From Pseudobutyrivibrio sp. (GTDB lineage: Bacteria; Bacillota; Clostridia; Lachnospirales; Lachnospiraceae), in assembly GCA_024684955.1 (NCBI GenBank), contig JAIKWH010000021.1:1-54923 (forward strand): 54,923 nt of DNA. Reading direction: 5' to 3'. Positions within the stretch are counted from its first letter, which is position 1. Each line of letters starts with the position of its first letter. A program made the translations under genes and the position numbers. Shown here in pieces: positions 2,359-21,293 of the stretch. The notes under the pieces were generated by a model. It did not search any database. It saw nothing but the letters and a program-made list of their open reading frames with translations, and was not told where the DNA came from.

Positions 2359-3183
2359 ATGAAGAAGAAATCAATTATTTATTTAATAGGGTTTGTTTTT
2401 TTCTTAGTAGTAATAACTGTCAGTGCTGCATTTATGACAAGGGATACGATCGTAAAAGGAAATGCGGCTGAAACGCTGGATGACATTGCAAAAGAAGTAA
2501 ACGATGTTGACGATGTGGAAATGACTGAGAGCAATTCCATTACTACTTCTACAGCTCCATATGGAAGCTTCGGGATAACAGTTCCAGAAAAAAATTTAGA
2601 TTGGAATGAATTACATAAAGAAAATGAAGATATATATGCATGGATAACTGTTACTGATACAACTATAGATTATCCAGTGCTACAGCATCCAATGGATAAT
2701 GCATATTATCTTAACCATAATCTGGATGGTTCAAAGGGATTCCCAGGTGTTATTTATACAGAAAACTACAATTCAAAAGATTTTAGCGATCCTCACACTG
2801 TTGTTTATGGACATAACCTCAAAGCAAAGACTATGTTCTCGAGTCTGCACAATTATGAGAAGGATAGCGTTTTTAACAAGGATCAATACATATATATATA
2901 TACAGAAGATAATGTATTAGTTTATAAGATATTCGCGGCATACGAGTTCAACGCAAATCATTTGCTTTTGAATTATGATTTTACAAATGAATATGTATAT
3001 GAGCAATACATCAAGGATATTTACAACGTGGCATCAAAAGGCTATGGAGTTGCGAAAATTAAACCAGATATAGAAGTAACAAAAGAAGACAAGATAATCA
3101 CACTTTCCACTTGCACATCTGATCATGATGACAATCAGAGATATCTGGTTGTTGGAGTGTTGATGGAGCCTGAGGGAGAATAG
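2359..3183 (+). CDS. srtB: Class B sortase
   Basis: A 274-residue membrane-anchored cysteine transpeptidase that joins proteins carrying a C-terminal sorting signal to the cell wall. One N-terminal membrane segment (about residues 5-26) precedes an extracellular catalytic domain with class B hallmarks: EDIYAWI, the YPVLQ strand, His in YGHNL (H152), Cys in LSTC (C252) and Arg in DNQRY (R261). All three catalytic residues are present, so it should be active. Start is set by AAGGGG a few bases upstream. It is followed 11 bases later by an LCP gene and then by a secreted protein ending in SPKTG, the likely substrate. Class B sortases typically recognise NPxTx-type motifs, to which SPKTG is close. 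Confidence 0.92.
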   Translation: MKKKSIIYLIGFVFFLVVITVSAAFMTRDTIVKGNAAETLDDIAKEVNDVDDVEMTESNSITTSTAPYGSFGITVPEKNLDWNELHKENEDIYAWITVTDTTIDYPVLQHPMDNAYYLNHNLDGSKGFPGVIYTENYNSKDFSDPHTVVYGHNLKAKTMFSSLHNYEKDSVFNKDQYIYIYTEDNVLVYKIFAAYEFNANHLLLNYDFTNEYVYEQYIKDIYNVASKGYGVAKIKPDIEVTKEDKIITLSTCTSDHDDNQRYLVVGVLMEPEGE

Positions 3184-3194
3184 AGTTTTACAAA

Positions 3195-4274
3195 ATGCTT
3201 AATGAAGAACTAACAACTGAAAGAAAAAAACTTACATTCGGGCTAAAAACTATCATTACAATTATTGCAATTATCTTGGTAGTACTAGGAATAATTTTTG
3301 TAATGAGGTTAGTTGGAAAGAGTAGTCTTGATAAGCCTGTGACAGGAGATTCGTCGGTAGTTGTGGGGGAGTCAACAAGTGAACTAGAAGAGAATCAGAT
3401 TATTTATGATGGAGAGATATATCAACTAAACGAGGATATCGTCTCTGTACTTGTCATGGGCATCGATTTTGAGACAGTTGAAGAAGTAGGAGGCCAAAGT
3501 TGGAGTGCCGAAGAAGGAAGTTATTTGGCTGGAGGTCAGGCTGATTCACTGTTTTTGGCAATAATTAATCCACATACAAGCAAGGTTTCTTTTTTGGCTA
3601 TTAATAGAAACGCCATGGCTGATGTAGATGTTTGGGATGAAGAAGGTAATTATCGGGGAGTGCAAACGCTGCAGATTTCCTTGCAACATGGGTATGGAGA
3701 TGGCAAGGAAGAAAGTTGTGAGCATCAGGTAAAGGCTGTTTCGAGAATGTTATACAACATTCCAATTAACTCATACGTCGCTATCAGTATGGATGGCATA
3801 CCTGTTTTAAATGACGCTGTAGGTGGAGTTACCGTTAATGTATTAGACGATATTGTATATCCGGAATACAACATGAATCTCCACAAGGGGGATGTAGTCG
3901 ATTTACAAGGGGATGCAGCCTATTGGTATGTTCGACTTAGAAATGAAAATGAGTTTGGATCAAATGAACTAAGACAAAATAGGCAGAAGCAGTATTTGGC
4001 AGAGTTTATGAAAAAAGCCAGAGAAGCTGCGACCTCAGATATAAGAGTTGCTATTGAATTATACAAAATATTATCGGATTACATGGTAACTGATGTTGAT
4101 TTAAATTCTTTCACATATATGGCTACAGAATATTTAGACTATGATTTTGATTTAGACAATATTTATTCCTTAGACGGAGAACTTATAAATGGAACCAAAT
4201 TTGAAGAGTTCTATTTCGATGAAGATTCCACTCAAAAATTAATAGTAGACCTATTCTACGAGCCAGTAGAATAG
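3195..4274 (+). CDS. LytR-CpsA-Psr (LCP) family protein
   Basis: A 359-residue protein with an N-terminal membrane anchor (about residues 15-37) and an extracellular LCP domain. Family landmarks are VLVMGID, the QADSLFLAIINP strand, FLAINRN, and IDFxxxx-like text as ISMDGIPVLNDAVGGVTVNV; a late conserved arginine block is AYWYVRLRNENEFGSNELRQNRQKQ (positions about 235-259, quoted piecewise: YVRLRNENEF, SNELRQNRQKQ). LCP enzymes transfer undecaprenyl-linked glycopolymers to peptidoglycan. Two usual residues differ: the arginine of the R-x-D-T element reads Gln-Ala-Asp-Ser, and the PRD element reads Asn-Arg-Asn. It lies between a sortase and its substrate, which suggests it assists in wall decoration of that system. 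Its ribosome binding site is weak, hinting at translational coupling to the sortase. Confidence 0.82.
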   Translation: MLNEELTTERKKLTFGLKTIITIIAIILVVLGIIFVMRLVGKSSLDKPVTGDSSVVVGESTSELEENQIIYDGEIYQLNEDIVSVLVMGIDFETVEEVGGQSWSAEEGSYLAGGQADSLFLAIINPHTSKVSFLAINRNAMADVDVWDEEGNYRGVQTLQISLQHGYGDGKEESCEHQVKAVSRMLYNIPINSYVAISMDGIPVLNDAVGGVTVNVLDDIVYPEYNMNLHKGDVVDLQGDAAYWYVRLRNENEFGSNELRQNRQKQYLAEFMKKAREAATSDIRVAIELYKILSDYMVTDVDLNSFTYMATEYLDYDFDLDNIYSLDGELINGTKFEEFYFDEDSTQKLIVDLFYEPVE

Positions 4275-4310: not shown

Positions 4311-4355
4311 TTTGATATAAACCACATGAATATAGGAGAGGAGGACAATAATACA

Positions 4356-5036
4356 ATGAAAAAGTCAATTTTAGTAGCGCTTACAGCTGCTATGGTGCTT
4401 ACAATGAGCTCAATGACAGCTTTTGCTGCTAGCCCAACAGTTGGTACAGTAGAGGCAACACCAGCTAGCATTGAGGCTACAACAGCAGTTGAGCCAACTG
4501 CTTCAGGTGAAGTTTATGCATCTGTTACAACAGTTTCTGAAGGATTTAAGGAGACAGCAGTGTCTGAGACAACAGTTAATTCTGCAGCAGTAGCAGCACA
4601 GAACATTATTCTTAACAATCTTGAGAAACTTGGAAATGCAACACTTACAAATGCAGCTACAGATTCTTCAAAGAAGGTATCAGCTATCCTTCGTGCAGTT
4701 GTTGACATTAAGCCTACAACAGCTACAAAGAATGCAGCTGGTAACTATGAGTTCACAATTACCAGCCCATACATTGGTGCAGGTACAGTTTATGTACTTC
4801 ACTATGTAGAGTCTGCAAAGACATGGGAACTTCTTGTTCCAAAGTCAGTAACAAATGGTGCCGTAGTTGTTGAGTCAGCTACATGCTCACCATTCGCATT
4901 AGTTGAAGTTAATGTTGCTTCAGCAACAGCAGCAGCTAAATCACCTAAGACAGGTGAGACAACTCCAGTTGCTATGATGGTTATTCTTCTTGGCACAGCT
5001 GGTGCAGTTGTTTGCGGCAAGAAAGCATTTGCTTAA
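4356..5036 (+). CDS. Secreted protein with C-terminal SPKTG sorting signal (sortase substrate)
   Basis: The start is taken at 4356, because GGAGAGGAGG at about 4336-4345 is a strong ribosome binding site for it; the ATG at 4326 lies upstream of that site. The 226-residue product begins with a signal peptide (MKKSILVALTAAM..., cleavage after AFA). The mature part is low-complexity and rich in Ala, Thr, Val and Ser, with a compact centre of about 80 residues containing YEFTITSPYIG and YVLHYVESAKTWEL. The C-terminus is a cell-wall sorting signal: SPKTGE (S196-E201), a hydrophobic stretch and a short tail with KK. Codon use is strongly biased to a few codons such as ACA and GCA, which suggests high expression. 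It is the obvious partner of the upstream class B sortase. Biological role unknown. Confidence 0.85.
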   Translation: MKKSILVALTAAMVLTMSSMTAFAASPTVGTVEATPASIEATTAVEPTASGEVYASVTTVSEGFKETAVSETTVNSAAVAAQNIILNNLEKLGNATLTNAATDSSKKVSAILRAVVDIKPTTATKNAAGNYEFTITSPYIGAGTVYVLHYVESAKTWELLVPKSVTNGAVVVESATCSPFALVEVNVASATAAAKSPKTGETTPVAMMVILLGTAGAVVCGKKAFA

Positions 5037-5189: not shown

Positions 5190-6353
5190 ATGAAGAAAAT
5201 ACTGTTCGTGACGTCTATAAGTGGGTTTCTCCCTCAGTTTGAAAGTAATGATGTTAAGATCTTGAAACAAATGGGATGCGAGATACATTATGCATCTAAT
5301 TTTAATAATCCTATTTATACATTTGATAGAAATAAATTAATTGAAGAAGGTGTTATTCTACACCAGATTGATATTGAAAAAAATCCTGCGAGAAGTTCAA
5401 ATATAAAGACTATTAAGCAGGTTAAAAACATAATAGATGAATGCAATATAGACATAGTGCACTGTCACAACCCTATGGGTGGAGTGTGCGCTAGGATAGC
5501 TGCTAGATTTAGCAAAAGAAAGCCGTATGTAATTTATACTGCACATGGATTTCATTTTTACAAGGGAGCACCTATACATAATTGGTTGCTTTATTATCCT
5601 GTTGAGAAATTCCTCGCTAGATGGACGGACCAGATTATTACTATAAACTCAGAGGATTTTTTTAGGGCAAAGCATTTCGCGCTAAAAAAAGGTGGGAAGG
5701 TAGATATAATACACGGCGTCGGAGTCGACGAGGGACGTTTTAAAAAGTCTAATCTAGAGACTAGAAAAATAGAATTGCGCCATAAACTTGGGGTATCTGA
5801 AGATGCGTTTGTTATAGTCACAGCGGCTGAACTTAATAATAACAAGAATCAACAGGTTGTGATAGATGCTCTTGAAAAGATAAAGATGGAGCAAAAAGTA
5901 AATATAAATGATATTCGATATTTGATTTGCGGTAAGGGACCTAACGCAGAACAAATAGAAGCAAATATACAAAAGGCAGGTTTGGAAAAACAAGTTAAAA
6001 TGTTGGGTTATAGAACTGATATGCCAGACATATTAGAGTGCGCAGACTGTTTTGCCTTTCCTTCATATAGAGAGGGTCTTGGTATTGCGGCGGTTGAAGC
6101 ATTGTTGTGTGGAGTACCGCTTATAGTGTCTGATAATAGAGGGACTAGGGAATATGCAATAGATTTAGTAAATGCAGTGGTATGTTTTTCAAATAGCGTA
6201 GATGAGTATGTGACAGCTATAACAGATTTAATGACTAATGAAGACTATAGATATTCTTTGGCTAGGAGATGCCGCAACTCTGCAAAGCATTTTACTATAA
6301 ATGAAGTAGAGAAGACTATGAAGAAGGTATATAAGACATGGGTAGACCGTTAG
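5190..6353 (+). CDS. Family 4 glycosyltransferase (GT-B)
   Basis: A 387-residue retaining glycosyltransferase of the GT4 type, cytoplasmic or loosely membrane-attached, expected to add a sugar to a lipid-linked surface glycan. The N-terminal Rossmann half shows KKILFVTSISGFLPQF and the HCHNPMGGVCARIAAR acceptor-side text. The C-terminal half carries the E-x7-E nucleotide-sugar motif, EGLGIAAVE, at E295 and E303. The sequence style (YTAHGFHFYKG) is like EpsD/CapJ-type enzymes. It is the first gene of the surface-glycan locus; its ribosome binding site is AGGGGAG at about 5176-5182. Its stop overlaps the next gene's start by 16 bases, which implies translational coupling. Donor and acceptor are unknown. 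Confidence 0.9.
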   Translation: MKKILFVTSISGFLPQFESNDVKILKQMGCEIHYASNFNNPIYTFDRNKLIEEGVILHQIDIEKNPARSSNIKTIKQVKNIIDECNIDIVHCHNPMGGVCARIAARFSKRKPYVIYTAHGFHFYKGAPIHNWLLYYPVEKFLARWTDQIITINSEDFFRAKHFALKKGGKVDIIHGVGVDEGRFKKSNLETRKIELRHKLGVSEDAFVIVTAAELNNNKNQQVVIDALEKIKMEQKVNINDIRYLICGKGPNAEQIEANIQKAGLEKQVKMLGYRTDMPDILECADCFAFPSYREGLGIAAVEALLCGVPLIVSDNRGTREYAIDLVNAVVCFSNSVDEYVTAITDLMTNEDYRYSLARRCRNSAKHFTINEVEKTMKKVYKTWVDR

Positions 6354-7261
6354 TATCCGTCATCATGGGTGTGTACAACCAATGGGACGAGGGAGTATTG
6401 AGAGAGGCTGTAGATTCAATACTTAATCAATCGTATGAGAATATTGAATTTATTATCTGGGATGACGGCTCTAAACCAGAGGCTGCCAGAATAGTTAAAG
6501 ATTTAGAAAAATTAGATAAGAGAATATTAGTGATGCGACGGGAGGAAAATATGGGACTGGCTGCATCATTAAATGAATGCATATTGGTTGCAAAAGGAAA
6601 ATACATTGCGAGAATGGACGCAGATGATATTTCTGCCAAAACCCGTATTGAGAGACAAGTGGATTTCCTAGAAAACAATTTAGAATATGCTTGGTGTGGG
6701 ACTAATACGGAACTATTTGATGAGACCGGCGTTTGGGGCCAGCGTCCTTATCCAGAGGTTCCAACGGCAAAGGATTATTACAAGTTTTCGCCTTATGCTC
6801 ATCCATCAGTTGTTTTTAGAGCAGAAGTATTTGATGCAGGCAGAGGATATTTGGCAACTGATGAGACACTTAGATGCGAAGATTATGAGATATTTATGCA
6901 TCTGGTTCAGAGGGGATTGCAAGGATACAACCTTCAGGAGAACCTATTCAAATATCGTGAGACCAAAGATTCATACGGAAAGCGGAAAACAAAATTCCGT
7001 ATAAACGAAGCAAAAATAAGATATCGCAATTTTAAGCAGATGGGAACGCTATTTCCGATAGGGTGGTTATTTGTATTGAGACCACTTGCGGCTTGTCTGT
7101 TACCACCTATATTAATCGAATTTATAAAGCGTAGCGAAGGAACTAGAAGAATAGAGAATGATAGAAAACAGGCTGATGTCGTACAAATTAATATTGAAAC
7201 AGGACAGACGCCTATATCAGGCTTTGCAGCAGTCGCTGAAAGCGCAAGACAATCTGGATGA
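6338..7261 (+). CDS. Family 2 glycosyltransferase (GT-A)
   Basis: A 307-residue inverting glycosyltransferase. The first 110 residues show the GT2 core: VSVIMGVYNQ, the IIWDDGS nucleotide-binding segment, ENMGLAASLNECI, and the DxD metal motif within ARMDADDIS. A weak hydrophobic stretch near residues 225-245 (GWLFVLRPLAACLLPPILIEF) may attach it to the membrane. It starts inside the preceding GT4 gene. Its last 104 bases overlap the following gene in another frame, an unusually long overlap; the tail after about residue 270 looks non-globular and may be an extension caused by loss of an earlier stop. It probably acts with the upstream GT4 on the same glycan. Confidence 0.88.
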   Translation: MGRPLVSVIMGVYNQWDEGVLREAVDSILNQSYENIEFIIWDDGSKPEAARIVKDLEKLDKRILVMRREENMGLAASLNECILVAKGKYIARMDADDISAKTRIERQVDFLENNLEYAWCGTNTELFDETGVWGQRPYPEVPTAKDYYKFSPYAHPSVVFRAEVFDAGRGYLATDETLRCEDYEIFMHLVQRGLQGYNLQENLFKYRETKDSYGKRKTKFRINEAKIRYRNFKQMGTLFPIGWLFVLRPLAACLLPPILIEFIKRSEGTRRIENDRKQADVVQINIETGQTPISGFAAVAESARQSG

Positions 7262-8528
7262 ATATGATCAGATATTTTTACATGTTTTTGCACCAGTAAT
7301 AGTAAATTATGTCAGATGGGTGCTAGAGACTGCCAAGAGTAAGAATATTGATAGACTTTATTTTCTGGCAAGAGATGGCTGGATAATGTATCACATTGCC
7401 AGTTATATTCAGCGAAATAGAACCGATTTGCAGATTGAACTTAGATATATTCACGTATCCAGATATGTTCTTCGAAATGCCGAGTATTCATTTGTTGGCA
7501 GAGATGTTCTAGACAGTGTTTTTGTAGGTGGAATAGATATCACTTTTGAAAAACTAATGAAGAGAGTGGATTTCACTGATGAAGAAATAATAAACGTTGC
7601 CAAAGAGATAGATTTTACAGAAAGAATAAAAGAGTGTCTATCCTATGCTCAGATACAGGAATTAAAGCTAAAAGTGGATGAATGCTCGGAGCTGTTTTTT
7701 AAATACGTAGAAGGCCACTCCAAAGAATTCTTTGATACAACGATAGGCTATCTAAGAGAGAATGGTTTATTTGAGGATGTTAGTTACGCAATAGTTGATA
7801 GCGGCTGGTTAGGTTCGACCCAAAAAAGCCTGAATAGATTAATTAGTCATATTTCTGGTAAAAGCCCTCGATTAGAAGGCTTTTATTTTGGGCTATATGA
7901 TATTCCTGATTCGATGGCAGCATCTGATTACCATGCCTATTATATTAAACCAGGTAAAAACATTAGTAGAAAAAGTAGGTTTTCTATATGTTTGTTTGAG
8001 ACTACATTTTCATCACCAGAAGGGATGACCATAGGATATAGAGATAAAATACAGGGGGGATTTGAAGCTGTGCAAAGCGATAAGGGCAATCCAAACTCTG
8101 CGTTTATGAAAAGAAACTATGAATTGGTTAAACAGTTTGTATATAACCTGGATAAGGTATGGTTTTTAGAAAAAGCAGATGAGAAGAAATCTACTCAAAT
8201 TGCAGAAAAATTATTATCTAAGATTATGTCTAATCCTACGGCATTAGAAGCGAGTACATTTGGTGGACTGCAGTTTTGCGATGATGTGCTGGAACTACAG
8301 ATGCAGAATGTGGCTGCAAAGTGGGATATGGGGGAGTTGCATAATCAGCAGTTCTTTAGAAGGATTAGGATAAAATTCTTTAAATCAAATAAAAAACTCC
8401 ATGAAAGTGGATGGCCAGAAGCTAGCATTGTAAATTTGCTGGGGGAGGGATACAAGGCTAGCAACGCCTTAAGAGGCGAGAGATTATACAAAAGGTTGAT
8501 GTATGTTAGGAAAGCTATTAAAAAATAG
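7158..8528 (+). CDS. Stand-alone C-terminal module of HAD-type glycan proteins
   Basis: This 456-residue protein has no glycosyltransferase core and no HAD DxD motif, but matches the C-terminal halves of the two HAD proteins further down the locus. Shared signatures are LYFLARDGWIM (R72-D73-G74) and VDSGWLGS (D214 to S220), compared with FTSRDGYYL / DFGYSGK and LSRDGEII / DIGWAGS in the others. In databases such sequences tend to be labelled predicted HAD hydrolases (COG5610-like), but the nucleophile domain is absent here. The conserved RDG and D-x-G-W-x-G-S elements suggest an enzyme active site. The start is uncertain: 7158 or the ATG at 7176 both lie inside the GT2 gene. It overlaps the next gene by 26 bases. 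Function unknown; a glycan-modifying role is inferred from context. Confidence 0.75.
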   Translation: MIENRLMSYKLILKQDRRLYQALQQSLKAQDNLDEYDQIFLHVFAPVIVNYVRWVLETAKSKNIDRLYFLARDGWIMYHIASYIQRNRTDLQIELRYIHVSRYVLRNAEYSFVGRDVLDSVFVGGIDITFEKLMKRVDFTDEEIINVAKEIDFTERIKECLSYAQIQELKLKVDECSELFFKYVEGHSKEFFDTTIGYLRENGLFEDVSYAIVDSGWLGSTQKSLNRLISHISGKSPRLEGFYFGLYDIPDSMAASDYHAYYIKPGKNISRKSRFSICLFETTFSSPEGMTIGYRDKIQGGFEAVQSDKGNPNSAFMKRNYELVKQFVYNLDKVWFLEKADEKKSTQIAEKLLSKIMSNPTALEASTFGGLQFCDDVLELQMQNVAAKWDMGELHNQQFFRRIRIKFFKSNKKLHESGWPEASIVNLLGEGYKASNALRGERLYKRLMYVRKAIKK

Positions 8529-10185
8529 AGGAATAAGAAGACTATATATCGTATTTGCGATAATAGCGGCTGTTGTCATATGGTCGGATGATGCATATGC
8601 AGAGGATGCTATTATTCACTTTGGCAGTGAAACGTATTTTGCAACGCAAGGAGAGGGCTTACCTATTGGTGTGTACATTAATACGGCTAATGGCGTAGGA
8701 CATTATGAAGTTACTGTAAAATATGACCCTACTGTGATGCAGTATGTGAGTGGTGCCGATGGTGTTGATCCTGAGCAGGGCATCCTGACTTTTGTTGGAG
8801 AATCAGGTGACAATGAAGTCAAGTATATGGTCAATTTCAATACCATTAGCGGTAATAATACGGCTATTAGTTTTGCTAGTGCCGATATTAGGATGGCCGA
8901 AACAGGAGAGGCTTTTAATGTGGCAGTACAGGGGGCTGCTCCTATAGGCGTTACTCCAGCCCTAGAGGAAGAGGCGGAAGTTGATGATGGTAGGATTCCT
9001 ATGGGGGTCTTGCGAGCCGAAGAAATGTTAATACCAGACCTAACAGTACCAGAAATAATTGGGCCCAAAGATAGATATGCGAGTGATGAGAGTATAGAAA
9101 GAAAAACTGGAGAGGGGGGATCTGTGGCAGCAGATGACGAGGAGGATTTGGAACAGACTAATTCAATTTTGTATAACAGTTACTTCCTATTTGTTCTTTT
9201 ATTTATAGCACTAGTTATTACCATTCAAATAGTGGCAACTATAATCATCAGAATAATAAAAAGGGCTCCTAATAAAGAGAAGAAAAAGGAAAAACTGGTA
9301 AGAAGAGAATCGAATTTTGAAAGTGGTAATAAATACTTAAATGTTATGGATCTAGACAGGGATTCAATAGACATTATTCAGCAGGGTGTTTACGATTTTG
9401 ATGCGTCTGATTATCTAGATCAGCCAAAAGGATTGCAAGAGCCTGTGATAGAAGTGGATGATGTGACTATGGAATTCCACATAGCAAGTTCTCAGGCGTC
9501 TGGATTGAAAGACTATTTAATTCAGTTATTGAAGAGACAGATAACTTATCGAAAACTATATGCACTATACCATGTGAGTTTCAACGTATATCGCGGAGAA
9601 ATAGTGGGAATAATAGGCACTAACGGCTCGGGTAAATCCACACTACTAAAAATTGTATCAGGAGCACTACATCCTACTGAAGGAGAAGTGAGAGCAGACA
9701 GAAAAAAGATACAACTTCTTACGCTGGGAACTGGATTTGATATGGAACTAACTGGCAAAGAAAATGTGTATCTGAATGGCGCAATCATAGGCTATAGCAA
9801 AAAGTTTTTGGATGAGCACTATGATGAGATAGTAGAATTCGCAGAACTGCAGGATTTTATGGATGAAAAGGTGAAAAACTATTCCAGTGGTATGGTAAGT
9901 AGACTGGGATTTGCCATTGCTACTGCAGGTGATGCGGCCGAGATATTAATACTAGATGAGGTGCTTTCAGTAGGCGATGAATTTTTCAGAAAGAAGAGCC
10001 TAAAGCGTGTCAAGGAAATGATACATGGAGGTAGCACTGTACTGCTCGTCAGCCATAGCATGCAAACTATATTAGACAACTGCACAAAATGTGTGTGGAT
10101 AGAAAAAGGCGAACTGCGGATGGTGGATGAACCAAAGGTAGTATGCGATGCATACAGCAAAATGAAAGAGAATGAGGCAGGGTAA
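8503..10185 (+). CDS. Polysaccharide-export ABC ATPase fused to an extracytoplasmic cohesin-like domain
   Basis: A 560-residue fusion. Residues 13-33 are a signal peptide or anchor ending AYA. Residues about 36-140 read as a cohesin-type beta-sandwich: GVGHYEVTVKYDPTVMQYVS, then GILTFVG and NTAISFASADI. A Glu/Asp-rich linker leads to a membrane segment at about 225-253 followed by a basic stop-transfer tail (RIIKRAPNKEKKKEK). Residues about 315-550 are an ABC ATPase of the Wzt/TagH polysaccharide-export class: Walker A GTNGSGKST (372-380), signature YSSGM (460-464), Walker B ILILDEV (481-487), H-loop VSH (516-518). Predicted topology puts the cohesin outside and the ATPase inside. Typical Wzt proteins have neither the N-terminal half nor a membrane segment. 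Its permease partners are presumably the two genes that follow, although a terminator and promoter intervene. Confidence 0.88.
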   Translation: MLGKLLKNRGIRRLYIVFAIIAAVVIWSDDAYAEDAIIHFGSETYFATQGEGLPIGVYINTANGVGHYEVTVKYDPTVMQYVSGADGVDPEQGILTFVGESGDNEVKYMVNFNTISGNNTAISFASADIRMAETGEAFNVAVQGAAPIGVTPALEEEAEVDDGRIPMGVLRAEEMLIPDLTVPEIIGPKDRYASDESIERKTGEGGSVAADDEEDLEQTNSILYNSYFLFVLLFIALVITIQIVATIIIRIIKRAPNKEKKKEKLVRRESNFESGNKYLNVMDLDRDSIDIIQQGVYDFDASDYLDQPKGLQEPVIEVDDVTMEFHIASSQASGLKDYLIQLLKRQITYRKLYALYHVSFNVYRGEIVGIIGTNGSGKSTLLKIVSGALHPTEGEVRADRKKIQLLTLGTGFDMELTGKENVYLNGAIIGYSKKFLDEHYDEIVEFAELQDFMDEKVKNYSSGMVSRLGFAIATAGDAAEILILDEVLSVGDEFFRKKSLKRVKEMIHGGSTVLLVSHSMQTILDNCTKCVWIEKGELRMVDEPKVVCDAYSKMKENEAG

Positions 10186-10200
10186 AATCCTGCCCTTTTT
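10176..10200 (+). terminator. Intrinsic terminator overlapping the ATPase stop codon
   Basis: GGCAGG (10176-10181) pairs with CCTGCC (10189-10194) and is followed by CTTTTTAT. The stop codon TAA at 10183-10185 is in the loop. It separates the ATPase transcript from the permease genes. Confidence 0.7.
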
Positions 10201-10268
10201 ATAAGTACAAATAGTTATAACTACTAAAATAGAATTCAATAACGATAAATACTCGCTTGGCTGGTAGT

Positions 10269-10346: not shown

Positions 10347-11108
10347 GTGAAATATGGAATTAGGCAGTACATCTTTGTGATTCGCGAACTGACTGCAAGG
10401 GAAATCAAAAGAAAATATGCCAGGTCTGTGCTGGGTATTGTGTGGTCGGTGCTGAATCCGCTGCTGTTTATGATTGTAATAGGCATAGTTTTTAGTGGGT
10501 ATTCACTTTACCCTGAAAAATATCCGGTGTATTTCATTACTGGACGTACGCTTTGGATTTTATTTAGCACAGCCACGATGACAAGCTTGACAGCTTTTGA
10601 AGATAATAAAAGCTTATTTATAAAAGCTAAAGTAAAAAGAGAGACATTTATTTTATCAAGAAATTATACTGCTTTAGTTAACCTATGGTTTTCATGTATT
10701 GCATTATTGATTGTTTATATTTGTGTCGGAGTAAAAATAAATTGGACAATAATAATCATTATTATAGATGTTTTCTTAGAATTACTATTTTCCATAGGTA
10801 TATCTTTTATTCTAGCAACATCTTATGTTTTTTATAAAGATATAAAAAATATTTGGAATCATTTAATTTTTATAATAGCGCATATGGTTGCCGTATTTGT
10901 TCCAATAGAACGTTATCCTAAAAATTTACATCAGATAACACAGATGAATCCATTATATATATATCCGAATATAGCGAGGCAATGTGTTCTATATGGGACA
11001 TTTAATAAAAAAGAATTATTTATTGCAATTATATGGGCTGTAGTCACATTTATACTTGGAATTATATATTTTAAGATTAGAGAAAATGAAATTGTTAAAA
11101 AGATATAG
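10347..11108 (+). CDS. ABC-2 type polysaccharide export permease
   Basis: A 253-residue integral membrane protein of the Wzm/TagG family. It begins with the cytosolic amphipathic segment typical of the family (YIFVIRELTAREIKRKYARSV, quoted in parts: IRELTAREIKRKYARS), then LGIVWSVLNPLLFMIVIG and five further hydrophobic segments. It should form the channel through which the lipid-linked glycan crosses the membrane, powered by the upstream ATPase. GTG is the start codon, with AGGGAGAG at 10331-10338. Base composition changes sharply inside the gene: the first 80 or so codons resemble the ATPase gene, and the rest is very AT-rich, which suggests a recombination joint near 10600. Ends nine bases before the second permease. 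Confidence 0.9.
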   Translation: MKYGIRQYIFVIRELTAREIKRKYARSVLGIVWSVLNPLLFMIVIGIVFSGYSLYPEKYPVYFITGRTLWILFSTATMTSLTAFEDNKSLFIKAKVKRETFILSRNYTALVNLWFSCIALLIVYICVGVKINWTIIIIIIDVFLELLFSIGISFILATSYVFYKDIKNIWNHLIFIIAHMVAVFVPIERYPKNLHQITQMNPLYIYPNIARQCVLYGTFNKKELFIAIIWAVVTFILGIIYFKIRENEIVKKI

Positions 11109-11117
11109 GGTGTCTTT

Positions 11118-11894
11118 GTGGGAAAAAGAGTAAATGTTATTGAACAATACATATTTGCAATTAGGCAGATAAATTATAAAGAATATAAGAATCAAACAAA
11201 TGAAATGAATTTAGGATGGCTATGGGATTATTTAAACCCATTGATATATATGATAATAATGTCAACATATTATCAAAATATTATTGTAAAAAAGATTGAA
11301 AATTTTCCTGTATTTGTGTTCATCGGAATTACTATTTTTAATTATTATCAATCGGCTACGAACGGGGCTATGAGGAGTATTGTTAGTAATAAGCAATTAT
11401 TGATAAAGTCTCAAATGCCCGTGGAAATATATATTTATCAAAAAATAATAATGGCTGCTCGTACGATGTTTTTTTCTTTCGTTATGCTTATTCCTATAAT
11501 AATGTTTTTTAAGATTAGGTTGACATGGCGAGTAGTACAAATCATTCCGATTTTTCTCTTGACAACAATAATTATTATTGGAATCAGTAAAATTCTTGCA
11601 GTTTTATATGTCTATTTTGAGGATATAGGATATTTGTATTCTGTATTTATGACATTAATGGTTTTTGTTTCGTGTGTTTTTGTACCATTAGAGAAGGTCC
11701 CGGATAATATTCGAACTCTATTTCAATATAACCCAATATACATATCAATATCAATGGTGAGAGATTGTCTTATGTACGGTACTGTTTCACATATTTCATA
11801 TTGGGTGAAAATAACAAGTTGGGCTGTACTGTTGTTACTAGTGGGAAATAAGTTTTTTAAAGTTAATAAAAATAAGTTTGTTAATTTAATTTAA
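11118..11894 (+). CDS. Second ABC-2 type export permease
   Basis: A 258-residue membrane protein starting at GTG 11118, nine bases after the first permease. It has the same overall plan (EQYIFAIRQINYKEYKNQTNEMN as N-terminal cytosolic helix in part, then LGWLWDYLNPLIYMIIM and five more hydrophobic stretches) but is clearly divergent from its neighbour. Wzm/TagG permeases normally act as homodimers encoded once. Two adjacent, unlike copies therefore suggest a heterodimer or two alternative permeases sharing one ATPase. Both end in similar extracellular text (FVPLEKVPDNIRTLFQYNPIYI against FVPIERYPKNLHQITQMNPLYI), which confirms common ancestry. Entirely within the AT-rich part of the locus. 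Confidence 0.85.
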   Translation: MGKRVNVIEQYIFAIRQINYKEYKNQTNEMNLGWLWDYLNPLIYMIIMSTYYQNIIVKKIENFPVFVFIGITIFNYYQSATNGAMRSIVSNKQLLIKSQMPVEIYIYQKIIMAARTMFFSFVMLIPIIMFFKIRLTWRVVQIIPIFLLTTIIIIGISKILAVLYVYFEDIGYLYSVFMTLMVFVSCVFVPLEKVPDNIRTLFQYNPIYISISMVRDCLMYGTVSHISYWVKITSWAVLLLLVGNKFFKVNKNKFVNLI

Positions 11895-11922: not shown

Positions 11923-14900
11923 ATGAGCGAGTTAGTATCAGTAGTTGTTCCATATTATCATGTAGAGGAAAAAATGTTTTTGAATTGTATAAAAAGTATA
12001 TGTGCATCTACATATAATAATATAGAAATAATTATTATAGATGATGGAAATGAAGATGTGCACTTGGATACAATAGATAAGTGTGCAACTTTAGATGAAA
12101 GAATAGTTGTAGTCAAGCATGAAAAAAATATCGGTTTATATCAAGCCAGAATTAGTGGAGTAGAATATGCTAATGGAGATTATATTTTATTTGTTGATGC
12201 AGATGATATGATATCTGTAGATTGGATACGTTTATTGGTCGAAGATATTAAAAAAAATGATACTGATCTTCAAATGGGTAACACAGTCTCAATAGATGGT
12301 AATGGTTGGAGATTTATTAGAAATCATGCATATTCATATAATAAATATAAAGAGAAATATAATAGTTGTCCATTAAATATTGTATTGGAAGATGAAGGAT
12401 GCATGTATGAATTACATGTAATGTGGAATAAATTATATAAGAAATCTTTATGGGATAAGTCATTGCATGATTTGAAAAGATTTAGTCGACACTTAGTAAT
12501 GACAGAAGATATCTTGTTTACCATGATATTATTCTATAATGCTAAGAATATGGGATTTAGTGATTGTGATGCCTATTTTTATAATAGGAATGAAAAGTCA
12601 TCTACAATGGATAACAACGACATCACAAAACTTAAAAAGGATATAAATGATGTTGTATATGTTTTTTCTTCAATAGAGGAATTTTTATGTGAAAAAATAT
12701 CCGAAGAAGAAAAAAAACATTTACAAGCATTTAAAGACAGATATTTTAGACTATGGTCATCTGTAATAATTTCAAATAAATCATCAGATAAGAAAAACTT
12801 GAATGATGTTAAGAAAAAATTCCTAATAAAATTTGAAAAAGAGGAACTAAAAAATCCAATAACTGAAGATGGCTATTTTGATAGCGTAAAAACAAACTGG
12901 AATAATTCTCTTGAAGAAATTAAATGTGAAATTATTAATACTCATCATAGAATTATTTCATTTGATATATTTGATACATTAGTTGTTCGGAATATTCTTA
13001 ATCCAGAAGATATATTAGATTTGGTTTCAATTGAAATTGGAAAAAGGAATATAGGTATAGTTGGATATAAAACCTTAAGAAAGAATTCTGAAACTATTGC
13101 TAGACAAAAGTTGAATATTAATCATCCGGGATGGGAGGATGTGAACATAAATGAAATATACGCTGAAATGAATAAGCTTGGTGTAGAAAAAAATATTTGC
13201 AATAAAATTATGGAAATAGAAATAGATATAGAAAAGAAGATAATTTCTGAACGCTCTATTGGTAAAGAATTATATAATCTTGCAAGATATCTTGGTAAAA
13301 AAATAGTTTTCACTTCTGATATGTACTTAGAACGCAAAGATATAGAGGATATATTATTTAAATGCGGCTATAAAGATTATGATGATATTTTTTTATCCTC
13401 AGAAAGGCGTGAGCTAAAGACAACAGGAAATCTCTATAGAACATTAATAAATGAACTAAAATGTGTACCTTCAGAGATTATTCATATCGGAGATAATTAT
13501 CAAGCAGATTTTTTAAATGCAAATAACATGGGAATAAAAGCTGTTCTTTTGCCAAAATCAAAAGAAATGCTGATGGGAAACATAAATAGCATATATTCTG
13601 GTTCGAGCAAAGATTGGATTGACTGTAATAAAGAATCTATATATGATTATTCAAATATATATGAGACGATTTATGCAAAGATTGCATATGCTATTTCGGC
13701 TAATATGATTTTTGGTAATCCGTATATTGAGTATAATAGAAATACTGATTTTAATGCAGATCCGCTCACAATAGGTGAGTTCCCGATAGGTATGCATTTA
13801 TTTAATGTTGCATCATGGCTTTGCGAGGAAGGAATTAAATATAAAAAAAAGGTTATACATTTTACTTCTAGAGATGGATACTATTTAAAACGTATATATG
13901 ATATTTGTCGAAAAAACATGTACCCTAATGCACCTAAATCTAGTTATTTATTTGTCAGCAGAAAAGCATTAATACCTATTCAGGTTAAGTTTTTTGGTAT
14001 GGATAGTGTTATTTCCTCCAATTCATGGAACGGACAAACTCATATAAATATATATAAGACTTATAGCAAGATTTTAAAAAGATTAGATGACAAAATAAGA
14101 CAAAGGTTATTCAATGATGGATATATATTAGAATCTAAATTTTCAAGTGAATTAGAATATATAAAGTATATAAAAAACTTATCTAATTATGTTGATGAAG
14201 ATCAATTGGAGAATAATTTTAATCTATGTAGAGAATATTTATCTAATAATATCAATGACGATGATATAATATTTGACTTCGGATATAGTGGAAAAATACA
14301 TTTAATGATTGAAAAAGCGATTGGAAAACATGTTTTAGGTTTATATATACATAATAATGGTCAAGATGCGTTTAATAGGTGCAAAAGTAATAATATGTCG
14401 ATACATACCTATTATTCAAAGGCGACTTCTATGTCTGGAGTAATTAATGAATACTTATTATCGGATTATCGTCCATCATGTATTGGTTATGAAAAAAATG
14501 ATAATGTCATTAAGCCAATCTTTGAAGAAAAGATAATAAGTCCAACTGATAACTATATATTTGAAAAAATATACCAAGGGGCAGAAGTTTTTACTAATAA
14601 TATCAGTAGAATATTAAATATAATAAATGATTGCGATTATAGGGTAGGAACAGAATTATCTGTCCCATATGAGCGATTTTTAATCTTTGCAAAAGATATG
14701 GATAAAAGAATATTTGATGAAAGTCATATAGAAGATGAGTATTTTGGCGGAATTACCAAAAAAAAATTAGTCGATATGTGGAATGAACAGATTAAGTGGA
14801 AAAGGCTATTTGATTTGAAAGATGATAATACAAAAAGAAAAGGAGAAAATGATGGCCTCAATATAAAAACTGAAAATCTTGAATGGGAAGTATATAAAGA

Positions 14901-15003
14901 AAAAGTTTTAAATGGGAATATTGTAAAAAAAGCCTTATATTGGATGATTGTAGATAAGTCTTTTTTCTTACGTAGGGTAAAAGAGAAAATTGGAGGGAAC
15001 TAG
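11923..15003 (+). CDS. GT2 glycosyltransferase fused to HAD-type domain and RDG module
   Basis: A 1026-residue, three-part protein. Residues 1-230 are a GT2 glycosyltransferase (VSVVVPYYH, IIIIDDGNE, DxD in FVDADDM at 91-97). Residues about 340-550 are a HAD phosphatase-like domain: motif I SFDIFDTL (D348, D351), motif II FTSDMY (T464, S465), motif IV HIGDNYQAD (D524, D529), with a large helical cap. Residues about 600-950 are the module shared with two other proteins in this locus: FTSRDGYYL (R650-D651-G652) and DFGYSGK (D785 to G790). It should be cytoplasmic; a basic tail may contact the membrane. Ribosome binding site AAAGGAG lies about 12 bases upstream. The combination could transfer a sugar and then trim or phosphorylate/dephosphorylate the product. 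Activity is inferred. Confidence 0.85.
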   Translation: MSELVSVVVPYYHVEEKMFLNCIKSICASTYNNIEIIIIDDGNEDVHLDTIDKCATLDERIVVVKHEKNIGLYQARISGVEYANGDYILFVDADDMISVDWIRLLVEDIKKNDTDLQMGNTVSIDGNGWRFIRNHAYSYNKYKEKYNSCPLNIVLEDEGCMYELHVMWNKLYKKSLWDKSLHDLKRFSRHLVMTEDILFTMILFYNAKNMGFSDCDAYFYNRNEKSSTMDNNDITKLKKDINDVVYVFSSIEEFLCEKISEEEKKHLQAFKDRYFRLWSSVIISNKSSDKKNLNDVKKKFLIKFEKEELKNPITEDGYFDSVKTNWNNSLEEIKCEIINTHHRIISFDIFDTLVVRNILNPEDILDLVSIEIGKRNIGIVGYKTLRKNSETIARQKLNINHPGWEDVNINEIYAEMNKLGVEKNICNKIMEIEIDIEKKIISERSIGKELYNLARYLGKKIVFTSDMYLERKDIEDILFKCGYKDYDDIFLSSERRELKTTGNLYRTLINELKCVPSEIIHIGDNYQADFLNANNMGIKAVLLPKSKEMLMGNINSIYSGSSKDWIDCNKESIYDYSNIYETIYAKIAYAISANMIFGNPYIEYNRNTDFNADPLTIGEFPIGMHLFNVASWLCEEGIKYKKKVIHFTSRDGYYLKRIYDICRKNMYPNAPKSSYLFVSRKALIPIQVKFFGMDSVISSNSWNGQTHINIYKTYSKILKRLDDKIRQRLFNDGYILESKFSSELEYIKYIKNLSNYVDEDQLENNFNLCREYLSNNINDDDIIFDFGYSGKIHLMIEKAIGKHVLGLYIHNNGQDAFNRCKSNNMSIHTYYSKATSMSGVINEYLLSDYRPSCIGYEKNDNVIKPIFEEKIISPTDNYIFEKIYQGAEVFTNNISRILNIINDCDYRVGTELSVPYERFLIFAKDMDKRIFDESHIEDEYFGGITKKKLVDMWNEQIKWKRLFDLKDDNTKRKGENDGLNIKTENLEWEVYKEKVLNGNIVKKALYWMIVDKSFFLRRVKEKIGGN

Positions 15004-19214: not shown

Positions 19215-19250
19215 AATAAGTAATCGTCGTGAATGATGATTACTTATTTT
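19215..19250 (+). terminator. Intrinsic terminator before the second HAD gene
   Basis: A 14-bp stem (19215-19228 with 19235-19248, one G-U pair) around a six-base loop, followed by TTTTTA. It closes the AT-rich operon. The longest reading frame of the next gene begins inside this hairpin, which argues for the later start. Confidence 0.75.
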
Positions 19251-19271
19251 TATATGGAGGAATATTGTGCT

Positions 19272-21293
19272 ATGCGTAAAGAATTATATAGTTTATTAGT
19301 TAACAAATCGCCAGGAATTTGCGATAAATATCATAATTTCCATGATGGCAAAACTGGCCTGTGGATTCCTATATCATGGTTATATTTAATATGGCTAAAT
19401 TTTGCTTATTATATCCTGTGCTTTAAGTGGATCGGTAAAACTGAAACAGTCTCGATTTACGAAGAAAAACATCTCTACATAAAGGGCACAGAAGAAACAG
19501 ATCCTAAGCATGGTTCTAAGGAATTATCAATTGAAAAGTTATTATTATGTGATGTTATTTCTTTCGACATATTTGATACGTTAATTTTGCGCCCGTTTTC
19601 AGAACCAACAGACCTATTCCACATCATTGGGCAACGAATTAACTATATGGATTTCAAACGCATCCGCACTGAGGCAGAGATTGCTGCGCGCAAGAAGAAG
19701 TTTAAAGAGCAGGGCTCCTATGAAGTAAATATAGCAGAAATTTGGAACCAGGTAGAGCAGGTTACGGGTATAGATGCTGAACTTGGTATGCAGTTAGAAA
19801 TCGAGACAGAGTTAGAGTTTTGCTATGCAAATCCATATATGAAAAAAATCTATGACGAGTTGATTGCCAGGGGTAAGCACGTGGTTATAACCTCTGATAT
19901 GTATTTGCCGGCGGATGTGCTAAAAAAGATTTTGGCTAAATGTGGATATACAGGCTACGAGTATTTATTTGTATCTTGTGATGAAAACAAATCTAAGGTC
20001 GAGGGAGACTTATATCAGTTAGTTAAAAGCAAATATACAGCACTTGATGATGAGCCCAAGAAATTTGCTCATATCGGAGATAATCCTGTTAGCGATGTGA
20101 AAAAAGCAGAGGAGAATGGGTTTGGTGCATTCCATTATAAAAATGTAAACGCGAATTCATTGCTTTATCGAGCCTATGACATGTCACCAATTATTGGCGG
20201 AGCATACAGGGGTATAGTGAATAATGCCATCTATTCTCAAGCAAATAATTTTACTCTTAATAAAGAATATGGTTTTATTTACGGTGGATTATTTGTTTTA
20301 GGATATTGCCATTTTATTCATGAATATTGCGCTAATCATAGCGTGGATAAGATACTATTTTTAAGCCGCGATGGTGAAATAATAAAAAGAGCATATGATT
20401 ATTTATATCCTGATGATGACACAGAGTATGTATATATTTCGCGACTAGCAGCAGTTAAGTGGTCTGCCCAGTTTATGAAATATGATTTCCTTAGAAAGAT
20501 GGTTTACCACAAGGTTAATCAGGGAAAATCTTTATCTAAGGTTTTAGATGAGATGGAGTTATCGACTATTGCAGATGCAATTTTCCAGGATACCTGTTCA
20601 CTAGACAAAGAGCTTACATCTAAAAACATAGATTCTTTTATTGATGCCATAGATAAAAATTGGAATAGTGTATTGGAGACTTACAGACCACAGGTAAAGG
20701 CGGCTGGAGATTACTATAGAGCAGTCATTGGGCATGCTAAATCAGCTGTGGCGGTGGACATTGGATGGGCAGGTAGCGGAGCAATTGCACTGAAAACATT
20801 GTTTGAAAATGCCTGGAATATAGATTGTAGACTGACAGGAATTGTGGCAGGGACTAATACAGCTACTAATTCTGAGCCTGATATGAGCGAAACCATGCTA
20901 TTAGATGGCAGTCTTGTTTCGTATCTATATTCATCTAGAGATAACAGAGATTTATGGAAAAAGCATAATCCATCAAAGGGGTACAATCTTTATTTTGAAT
21001 TACTTACTTCATCTGCACAGCCTTCATTCAAGGGATTTTACTATGATGATACAGATGGAAGCATACAAGCAAGATTTGGCAATCCAGAGCCAAATCCTGA
21101 AGGAATAAAAGAGATCCAGGATGGCATAATGCAGTTTATAACTGAGTACCAAGCACATTTTAAGAATTATCCATATATGTTTAATATTTCAGGAAGAGAT
21201 GCCTACGCACCTATGTTTCTTGCTGCCAGCCATAATGAAAAGTACCTAAAGGCTGTCTATAAAAACTTCGGATTGACGGAGGGTGTAGAATAG
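19272..21293 (+). CDS. HAD-type protein with RDG module
   Basis: Start chosen at ATG 19272, since GGAGG at 19256-19260 serves it and the earlier ATG at 19233 sits in a terminator hairpin. The 673-residue product has a short hydrophobic stretch near residues 32-52 (WLYLIWLNFAYYILCF), then a HAD domain: SFDIFDTLIL (D99, D102), ITSDMYLP, and HIGDNPVSD. The C-terminal module carries FLSRDGEII (R366-D367-G368) and DIGWAGSG (D496 to S502). It is the full-length relative of the GT2-HAD fusion at 11923 without the glycosyltransferase. All HAD acidic residues are present, so phosphoryl transfer is plausible; the substrate is unknown. Base composition returns to that of the flanks, so it marks the right edge of the AT-rich core. 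Confidence 0.82.
   Translation: MRKELYSLLVNKSPGICDKYHNFHDGKTGLWIPISWLYLIWLNFAYYILCFKWIGKTETVSIYEEKHLYIKGTEETDPKHGSKELSIEKLLLCDVISFDIFDTLILRPFSEPTDLFHIIGQRINYMDFKRIRTEAEIAARKKKFKEQGSYEVNIAEIWNQVEQVTGIDAELGMQLEIETELEFCYANPYMKKIYDELIARGKHVVITSDMYLPADVLKKILAKCGYTGYEYLFVSCDENKSKVEGDLYQLVKSKYTALDDEPKKFAHIGDNPVSDVKKAEENGFGAFHYKNVNANSLLYRAYDMSPIIGGAYRGIVNNAIYSQANNFTLNKEYGFIYGGLFVLGYCHFIHEYCANHSVDKILFLSRDGEIIKRAYDYLYPDDDTEYVYISRLAAVKWSAQFMKYDFLRKMVYHKVNQGKSLSKVLDEMELSTIADAIFQDTCSLDKELTSKNIDSFIDAIDKNWNSVLETYRPQVKAAGDYYRAVIGHAKSAVAVDIGWAGSGAIALKTLFENAWNIDCRLTGIVAGTNTATNSEPDMSETMLLDGSLVSYLYSSRDNRDLWKKHNPSKGYNLYFELLTSSAQPSFKGFYYDDTDGSIQARFGNPEPNPEGIKEIQDGIMQFITEYQAHFKNYPYMFNISGRDAYAPMFLAASHNEKYLKAVYKNFGLTEGVE

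Follow-up and report, generated by a model that had tools for sequence, protein, structure and literature searches.

We analysed contig JAIKWH010000021.1 of Pseudobutyrivibrio sp. (assembly GCA_024684955.1, genome G000), and refer to this whole stretch of 54,923 nucleotides as the window. Positions 8503-10185 of its forward strand form a frame of 560 aa that is open throughout, without an internal stop. The product, here named cohABC, unites a signal peptide, a cohesin-fold domain and a membrane helix with an export ATPase of the ATP-binding cassette (ABC) type. Its parts are:

8503-10185, plus strand: cohesin-membrane-ABC fusion ATPase (cohABC), assigned by its frame, Pfam, AlphaFold2 and Foldseek
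8503-8601, plus strand: signal peptide, residues 1-33, with the cleavage site between AYA and ED
8608-8955, plus strand: cohesin-fold domain, residues 36-151, assigned by Pfam, profile search, AlphaFold2 and Foldseek
8956-9177, plus strand: acidic outer linker, residues 152-225, predicted to be disordered
9178-9261, plus strand: membrane helix, residues 226-253, from hydropathy and the structure model
9262-9438, plus strand: basic inner linker, residues 254-312
9343-9357, plus strand: VMDLD motif, residues 281-285, also present in the cytoplasmic tails of stand-alone cohesin-membrane proteins
9439-10182, plus strand: Wzt/TagH-type ATPase domain, residues 313-560, with Walker A at 9616-9639

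A first-pass annotation, made from the sequence letters, had described an N-terminal signal sequence, an outside cohesin-like beta-sandwich, a membrane span at residues 225-253 flanked by an acidic linker and a basic stretch, and an ATPase of the Wzt/TagH kind without the cytoplasmic C-terminal sugar-binding domain of Wzt. This layout held in all its parts. The hydropathy maximum lies at residues 231-249. The full-length AlphaFold2 model placed cohesin strands at residues 36-151, disorder at 155-225 and a helix at 226-268; it is weak (mean predicted local distance difference test, pLDDT, 61.3; predicted template modelling score, pTM, 0.38) and gives no relative placement of the domains. The ABC domain is complete (Pfam ABC_tran, E 6e-22). 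Since only 45 residues lie between the H-loop motif and the C-terminus, cohABC lacks a C-terminal sugar-binding domain.

The cohesin assignment was made by profile searches and structure prediction. With Pfam Cohesin (PF00963, cut-off 24.1 bits) we obtained 22.0 bits for the whole protein, 24.0 bits for residues 34-216 and 25.1 bits for the isolated 123-residue domain, and eight of 11 relatives were matched. Searching the PDB by phmmer gave an E-value of 9e-5 to ScaB cohesins. An 11-row profile of exporter cohesins was too thin to reach the solved cohesins (best E only 0.08), while a 37-row profile of relatives gave E 4.6e-6 and its 13 best matches were all cohesins. The isolated domain was modelled by AlphaFold2 with 11 strands (pLDDT 90.9, pTM 0.80), and ranks 1-41 of a Foldseek search against the PDB were cohesins or cohesin-holding cellulosome assemblies, with TM-scores up to 0.78 by query length; a sugar-binding match was absent from these ranks. 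Thus, structure prediction and Foldseek together confirmed the fold. The matches included non-cellulosomal cohesins from Archaeoglobus fulgidus (2xdh) and Clostridium perfringens (NagJ/GH84C; 2jh2, 2w1n), which share the fold in Foldseek and the profile search. Judged from the structure titles, the matched chains hold no ABC ATPase, whereas the cohesin of cohABC belongs to an export motor protein. For homology to the dockerin-paired cohesins of the genus, profile-profile comparison gave probabilities of 5.9 (11-row profile) and 16.7 (37-row profile).

The same single-frame layout was found in 22 further Lachnospiraceae-type loci, so that 23 fusion loci including the window could be compared. 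By eye, a small-x-Ala signal-peptide site precedes the cohesin in 22 of them; in the remaining one (L137) the listed frame begins at the cohesin. The stretch before the helix is acidic in all 23 fusions, and that after the helix is net basic in 18. Mean pairwise identity among 21 fusions fell from 0.76 in the ATPase to 0.40 in the cohesin and to 0.21 and 0.18 in the two linkers. The residues F40, G41, S42, Y45, Y58, Y74, D75 and F112 of the cohesin were invariant, five of them being aromatic. A frameshift or misassembly joining two separate genes, which the first-pass annotation had considered, was excluded by these loci: intact frames in independent genomes refute an artefact of assembly or gene calling, and we give it practically no chance. 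The gene is in two pieces in the draft of Butyrivibrio fibrisolvens 16/4, but the neighbours there (the counterparts of the 7158-8528 gene and of the permease Wzm2) are broken too, which points to errors of that draft.

The best PDB matches of the ATPase domain were the Wzt-type structures 6amx and 8dku, TagH (7dd0) and TarH (6jbh), the two Wzt structures being the closest solved relatives by E-value. NCBIfam TagH models remained under their cut-offs (NF010066/NF010065, 178.9 of 320 and 186.1 of 538 bits). Two ABC2_membrane permeases (Pfam) are encoded beside cohABC. As far as sequence relationships tell, cohABC powers a Wzm/Wzt-like (TagGH-like) exporter, whose substrate is probably a lipid-linked wall glycopolymer. 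Wzt of Aquifex aeolicus and of E. coli O9a likewise combines a related ATPase with an ABC2 permease partner. In Wzt proteins of the carbohydrate-binding-domain type, the cytoplasmic C-terminal sugar-binding domain is required for the export of capped chains, according to the sections available of PMC9445017; it is this domain that cohABC does not possess.

A closer counterpart in layout is TagH of the Bacillus subtilis wall teichoic acid exporter TagGH (type V). The available part of PMC11466899, in whose text the names TagG and TagH are swapped in places, describes this export ATPase as bearing one membrane helix of its own and an SH3b-like domain that is extracellular, an arrangement termed unusual by the authors; the outside domain shows some homology to SH3b domains, which bind wall polymers. 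Compared with that description the layout of cohABC is reversed: TagH runs from the ATPase over the helix to the SH3b-like domain, cohABC from the signal peptide over the cohesin and the helix to the ATPase, and the outside folds differ. B. subtilis TagH is thus a precedent for an export ATPase that combines a helix with an outside domain; the reversed order, the cohesin fold and a permease-borne copy of the module (see below) set the present system apart. In the open-licence literature we found no description of a cohesin joined to an ABC export ATPase, which is weak evidence of absence.

To describe the distribution of the module, a subfamily was defined by an ATPase-domain search at our own threshold of E<=1e-100 in 397 genomes of the family; it was present in 25. 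Ten of these encode the cohesin-helix-ATPase fusion (G000, G049, G112, G144, G154, G279, G331, G334, G349 and G376), and one (G070) carries the cohesin on the permease instead. The cohesin is absent in the other 14, four of which keep the helix (G053, G131, G230, G397), while ten have neither. The G070 ATPase begins with a basic stretch and DLIDLD, and in the cohesin tree the permease-borne copy falls among ATPase-borne copies (90/70 support). On the ATPase tree the cohesin label required nine changes, at least four of them forced by well-supported branches. Within the genus the exporter cohesin occurs in ten of 29 genomes; in G019 the same operon encodes an ATPase that starts after the helix, the N-terminal half missing. 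Outside the family no fusion was found among 20 ATPases besides that of the window (E<=1e-85, sample of 391 genomes of the class), whose frames measured 245-278 aa, and cohesin matches in this sample were weak. Because the cohesin module is absent in relatives, it is accessory and not part of the motor. This agrees with the report that S. aureus tarGH could replace tagGH in B. subtilis (available part of PMC7078476).

Two ATPases of the subfamily that have neither cohesin nor helix (L191 in G089 and L192 in G418) possess C-terminal choline-binding-type repeats (PF21540, 27.3 and 26.0 bits, cut-off 27), which would be cytoplasmic unless exported.

The genes around cohABC looked like a wall-glycopolymer locus, comprising a sortase, an LCP (LytR-CpsA-Psr) ligase, glycosyltransferases, ribofuranosyltransferase relatives and two permeases:

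2359-3183, plus strand: class B-like sortase (TIGR03064, 153.5 bits, cut-off 153.75)
3195-4274, plus strand: LCP glycopolymer ligase (Pfam/NCBIfam)
4326-5036, plus strand: small secreted protein with an SPKTG sorting signal, recognised from sequence, no Pfam family
5190-6353, plus strand: glycosyltransferase-like protein, named from sequence alone, conserved neighbour
6338-7261, plus strand: GT2-like glycosyltransferase, similar to the GT2 domain of 11923-15003, conserved neighbour
7158-8528, plus strand: relative of CriT, the ribofuranose-5-phosphate transferase domain of Haemophilus type b Bcs3 that depends on phosphoribosyl pyrophosphate (PRPP); overlaps the start of cohABC
10347-11108, plus strand: Wzm1, ABC2_membrane permease (Pfam)
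11118-11894, plus strand: Wzm2, ABC2_membrane permease (Pfam)
11923-15003, plus strand: protein with GT2, HAD phosphatase and ribofuranosyltransferase-like parts

Most loci of the subfamily keep one gene order: two glycosyltransferases, the CriT relative, permease, ATPase. In a few, a contig end truncates the locus or a recognised member is missing. The product of 7158-8528 aligns with residues 613-869, in the CriT region, of Bcs3, the capsule polymerase of Haemophilus type b (E 2.8e-7). CriT itself comprises residues 592-1036 of Bcs3 and transfers ribofuranose-5-phosphate from PRPP, as stated in the sections available of PMC10299916. The products of 11923-15003 and 19233-21293 match solved ribofuranosyltransferases (7shg; Bcs3). 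Given these relatives, the product of the locus is, on sequence similarity, probably a ribofuranose-containing wall polymer. The window thus encodes three ribofuranosyltransferase relatives (7158-8528, 11923-15003, 19233-21293), two of them with HAD phosphatase-like parts. Relatives of the small secreted protein retain SP[KRQ]TG in 12 of 13 loci, and three proteins searched against PHROGs gave no match. An LCP gene lies within the fetched stretch in 19 of the 23 fusion loci, the exceptions being L007 (where the stretch is incomplete), L139, L142 and L201. By description, the neighbourhood of sortase and LCP gene resembles the capsule locus of Mediterraneibacter gnavus, another Lachnospiraceae polysaccharide locus, which contains srtB4, an LCP gene and a BY-kinase/phosphatase and in which srtB4 and LCP mutants each lose capsule presentation; unlike in the window, an ABC transporter and a cohesin are not mentioned in the available passages of PMC13121745.

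As one possible role of the outside domain, the first-pass annotation had named the capture of a dockerin protein. Dockerins were searched in the own genome, 29 genomes of the genus and 28 chosen genomes with Dockerin_1 (PF00404), which detects type I dockerins only and would miss a strongly diverged one. The scan of the own genome (G000, 86% complete) returned no Dockerin_1 match, and thus none of the dockerin-bearing enzymes that characterise a cellulosome; cohABC was its only Cohesin match. The exporter cohesin occurs in 20 of the searched genomes (ten in the genus, and nine with fusions plus G070 outside it). Type I dockerins were absent from 12 of these, namely nine outside the genus (each at least 92% complete), G021 (99%), G000 and G026 (77%). 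In seven of the eight dockerin-positive genomes (G001, G004, G005, G011, G014, G027, G028) the dockerin lies about 2 kb from a separate cohesin gene, and in the eighth (G334) it belongs to a wall-hydrolase family. These scans do not support the proposed capture, and a dockerin partner was rejected as the general explanation. A dockerin-type wall hydrolase was rejected as partner as well: its family is absent from 13 of the 15 exporter-cohesin genomes searched (present in G376 and G334) and occurs in two of three helix-only genomes searched.

A large dockerin protein with its own cohesin gene of 267-306 aa about 2 kb away was observed in L127, L128 and the matching places of 12 genus genomes. 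The dockerin protein of L127, the one scanned with Pfam, is a subtilase. Loci of this type represent two-gene cohesin-dockerin pairs outside cellulosomes.

The cohesin profile matched 138 of the 397 family genomes. Thirty loci were opened and contained eight ATPase fusions, one permease fusion and 21 other proteins, which mostly consist of a signal peptide, the cohesin, in many cases a cadherin-like domain, then a single helix and an acidic tail. In four stretches (L075, L082, L083, L084) the stand-alone gene lies within polysaccharide loci, with neighbours that we take to be CpsB, CpsC and CpsD from their sequences. Many stand-alone cohesins adjoin a secreted SH3/cadherin-like protein, presumably a wall hydrolase as far as it can be recognised from sequence, in which Dockerin_1 exceeded its cut-off in five of ten scanned. 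The loci L078, L079, L091, L092 and L145 place a membrane cohesin beside such a Dockerin_1-bearing protein. Membrane cohesin and dockerin-bearing hydrolase likely form a receptor-hydrolase pair in Lachnospiraceae, and the stand-alone branch probably has the usual function of cohesins. Owing to this adjacency, the ancestral ligand of the exporter cohesin may well have been a dockerin.

The stand-alone proteins and the fusions have a further element in common. A motif of the form hydrophobic-(x)-D-hydrophobic-acidic was defined after it had been seen in both groups, and kinship inflates all shuffle comparisons given here. Of 21 fusions, 16 carry it in the inner linker (2000 shuffles: mean 2.2, highest 8), and ten of 23 stand-alone proteins have it at most 12 residues from the C-terminus (shuffled mean 0.7), compared with four of 587 other frames of the same loci. 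Among 20 held-out stand-alone proteins it was present in 11 (2000 shuffles: mean 0.70, highest 5), and several of those without it narrowly miss the pattern, their last residues being FIDL, IFDL or ILDI. Window positions 9343-9357 share this xxFIDLD-type motif with the tails of L051-L074 and L215-L234, and the G070 ATPase, whose cohesin is permease-borne, retains DLIDLD close to its start. These sequences are read most simply as the fusion of an entire stand-alone protein, with its tail motif, to the N-terminal side of the ATPase, the tail having a binding partner within the cell. The shared cytoplasmic motif hints at a common inside partner.

Our preferred interpretation, to which we assign a probability of about 0.4, is that the module forms an accessory docking port at the exit of the exporter and holds a non-dockerin partner of the envelope, most likely a wall-attachment protein such as the LCP ligase. 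Once the signal peptide is cleaved, a flexible acidic stalk would carry the cohesin on the outside. One helix would span the membrane, and the ATPase would work on the inner side together with the Wzm permeases; in a dimeric exporter, two cohesin modules would then be present at the exit. There the cohesin might keep the partner close, so that the polymer could be handed on and then linked to the wall by the LCP ligase that the locus encodes. Known cohesins bind proteins, and for this reason a protein partner was favoured. The frequent presence of an LCP gene in the fusion loci and the same cohesin on the permease of G070 support the docking port. Several points weigh against it. The four fusion loci named above have no LCP gene in the fetched stretch. 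The association comes from one locus sample and is not independent of descent; the LCP type tracks the cohesin clade, yet other genes of the locus do so too. In a mirror-tree comparison, suggestive at most as its pairs are not independent, cohesin divergence tracked that of the ATPase (rho 0.64), of the glycosyltransferase GT1 (0.51) and, weakly, of Wzm1 (0.21), a pattern that would suit glycan recognition at least as well. By analogy, the exchange of tagGH for tarGH described in the accessible part of PMC7078476 may mean that such outside domains have little effect on export.

We therefore also considered that the domain binds the emerging polymer outside, as a counterpart of the cytoplasmic Wzt domain, and gives export its direction or specificity. 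This capture of the glycan is rather unlikely in our estimation, and it was kept high among the alternatives because, among the measured parts of the locus, the cohesin changes fastest (mean distance 0.64 vs 0.26 for the ATPase) and follows GT1 more than Wzm1. The choline-binding-type repeats on two cohesin-less ATPases and, in the part available of PMC11466899, the resemblance of the TagH outside domain to wall-polymer-binding SH3b domains would suit it. The five invariant aromatics could serve sugar binding, but they may equally be core residues, and the leading Foldseek ranks hold cohesins without any sugar-binding match. We know of no cohesin that binds sugars. The fusion could, in turn, do nothing except keep the ATPase at the membrane as a passive anchor or spacer, the cohesin being a remnant of a fused receptor gene. 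Such a role would explain why four relatives keep the helix without the cohesin and ten dispense with both, why the full stand-alone layout of cohesin, helix and DLD-motif tail precedes the ATPase, and why the module was gained or lost repeatedly. A remnant should decay, however; in all 21 aligned fusions (mean identity 0.40) the frame of the cohesin is still open and its invariant residues are kept, and the permease-borne copy of G070 needs no anchor. We consider this explanation improbable. Still less probable is a dockerin receptor, by which a surface enzyme with a dockerin would be captured and tethered to the exporter. The domain is a cohesin by fold, its stand-alone relatives lie beside Dockerin_1 proteins in half of the scanned cases, and dockerins occur in 15 of 29 genus genomes and in G334. 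Against this, the own genome and the majority of exporter-cohesin genomes are devoid of type I dockerins, seven of the eight others supply a separate cohesin close to the dockerin, dockerins are just as frequent in subfamily members without the cohesin (4 of 14), and the dockerin-type hydrolase family is mostly missing. In evolutionary terms, it is possible, and tentatively proposed here, that a mobile outside docking port arose when a membrane-anchored cohesin receptor was taken over whole, with its outside domain, helix and cytoplasmic DLD-motif tail, by glycopolymer exporters, sometimes on the ATPase and once on the permease, its ligand switching from a dockerin to the exported glycan or to a wall ligase.

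How a lipid-linked glycan is handed over from an ABC exporter to the wall-attaching enzyme is poorly understood in Gram-positive bacteria. Here a well-defined binding module belongs to the motor protein and would, by the predicted topology, lie at the exit. If the mobile port exists, the export motor itself would grip the following stage of wall assembly on the outside. Certain gut and rumen relatives of Butyrivibrio carry the module. Natural controls exist, since the same operon is found with an ATPase-borne or a permease-borne module, with the helix alone or with neither, which makes the hand-over question directly testable. Moreover, a clear group of cohesins in genomes free of type I dockerins is a test case for cohesin ligands outside cellulosomes.

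Some minor observations concern the loci themselves. A near-identical locus was present in two bins of one study labelled with different phyla, L008 (Muribaculaceae) and L010 (Blautia); the Muribaculaceae label of L008 is probably a binning error. In the window, a terminator-like hairpin with a T-run, noted by eye, extends across the cohABC stop codon (10177-10205), and a gap of 161 nt separates the gene from that of the permease. In L002 and L005 the ATPase and permease genes are 4 nt apart.

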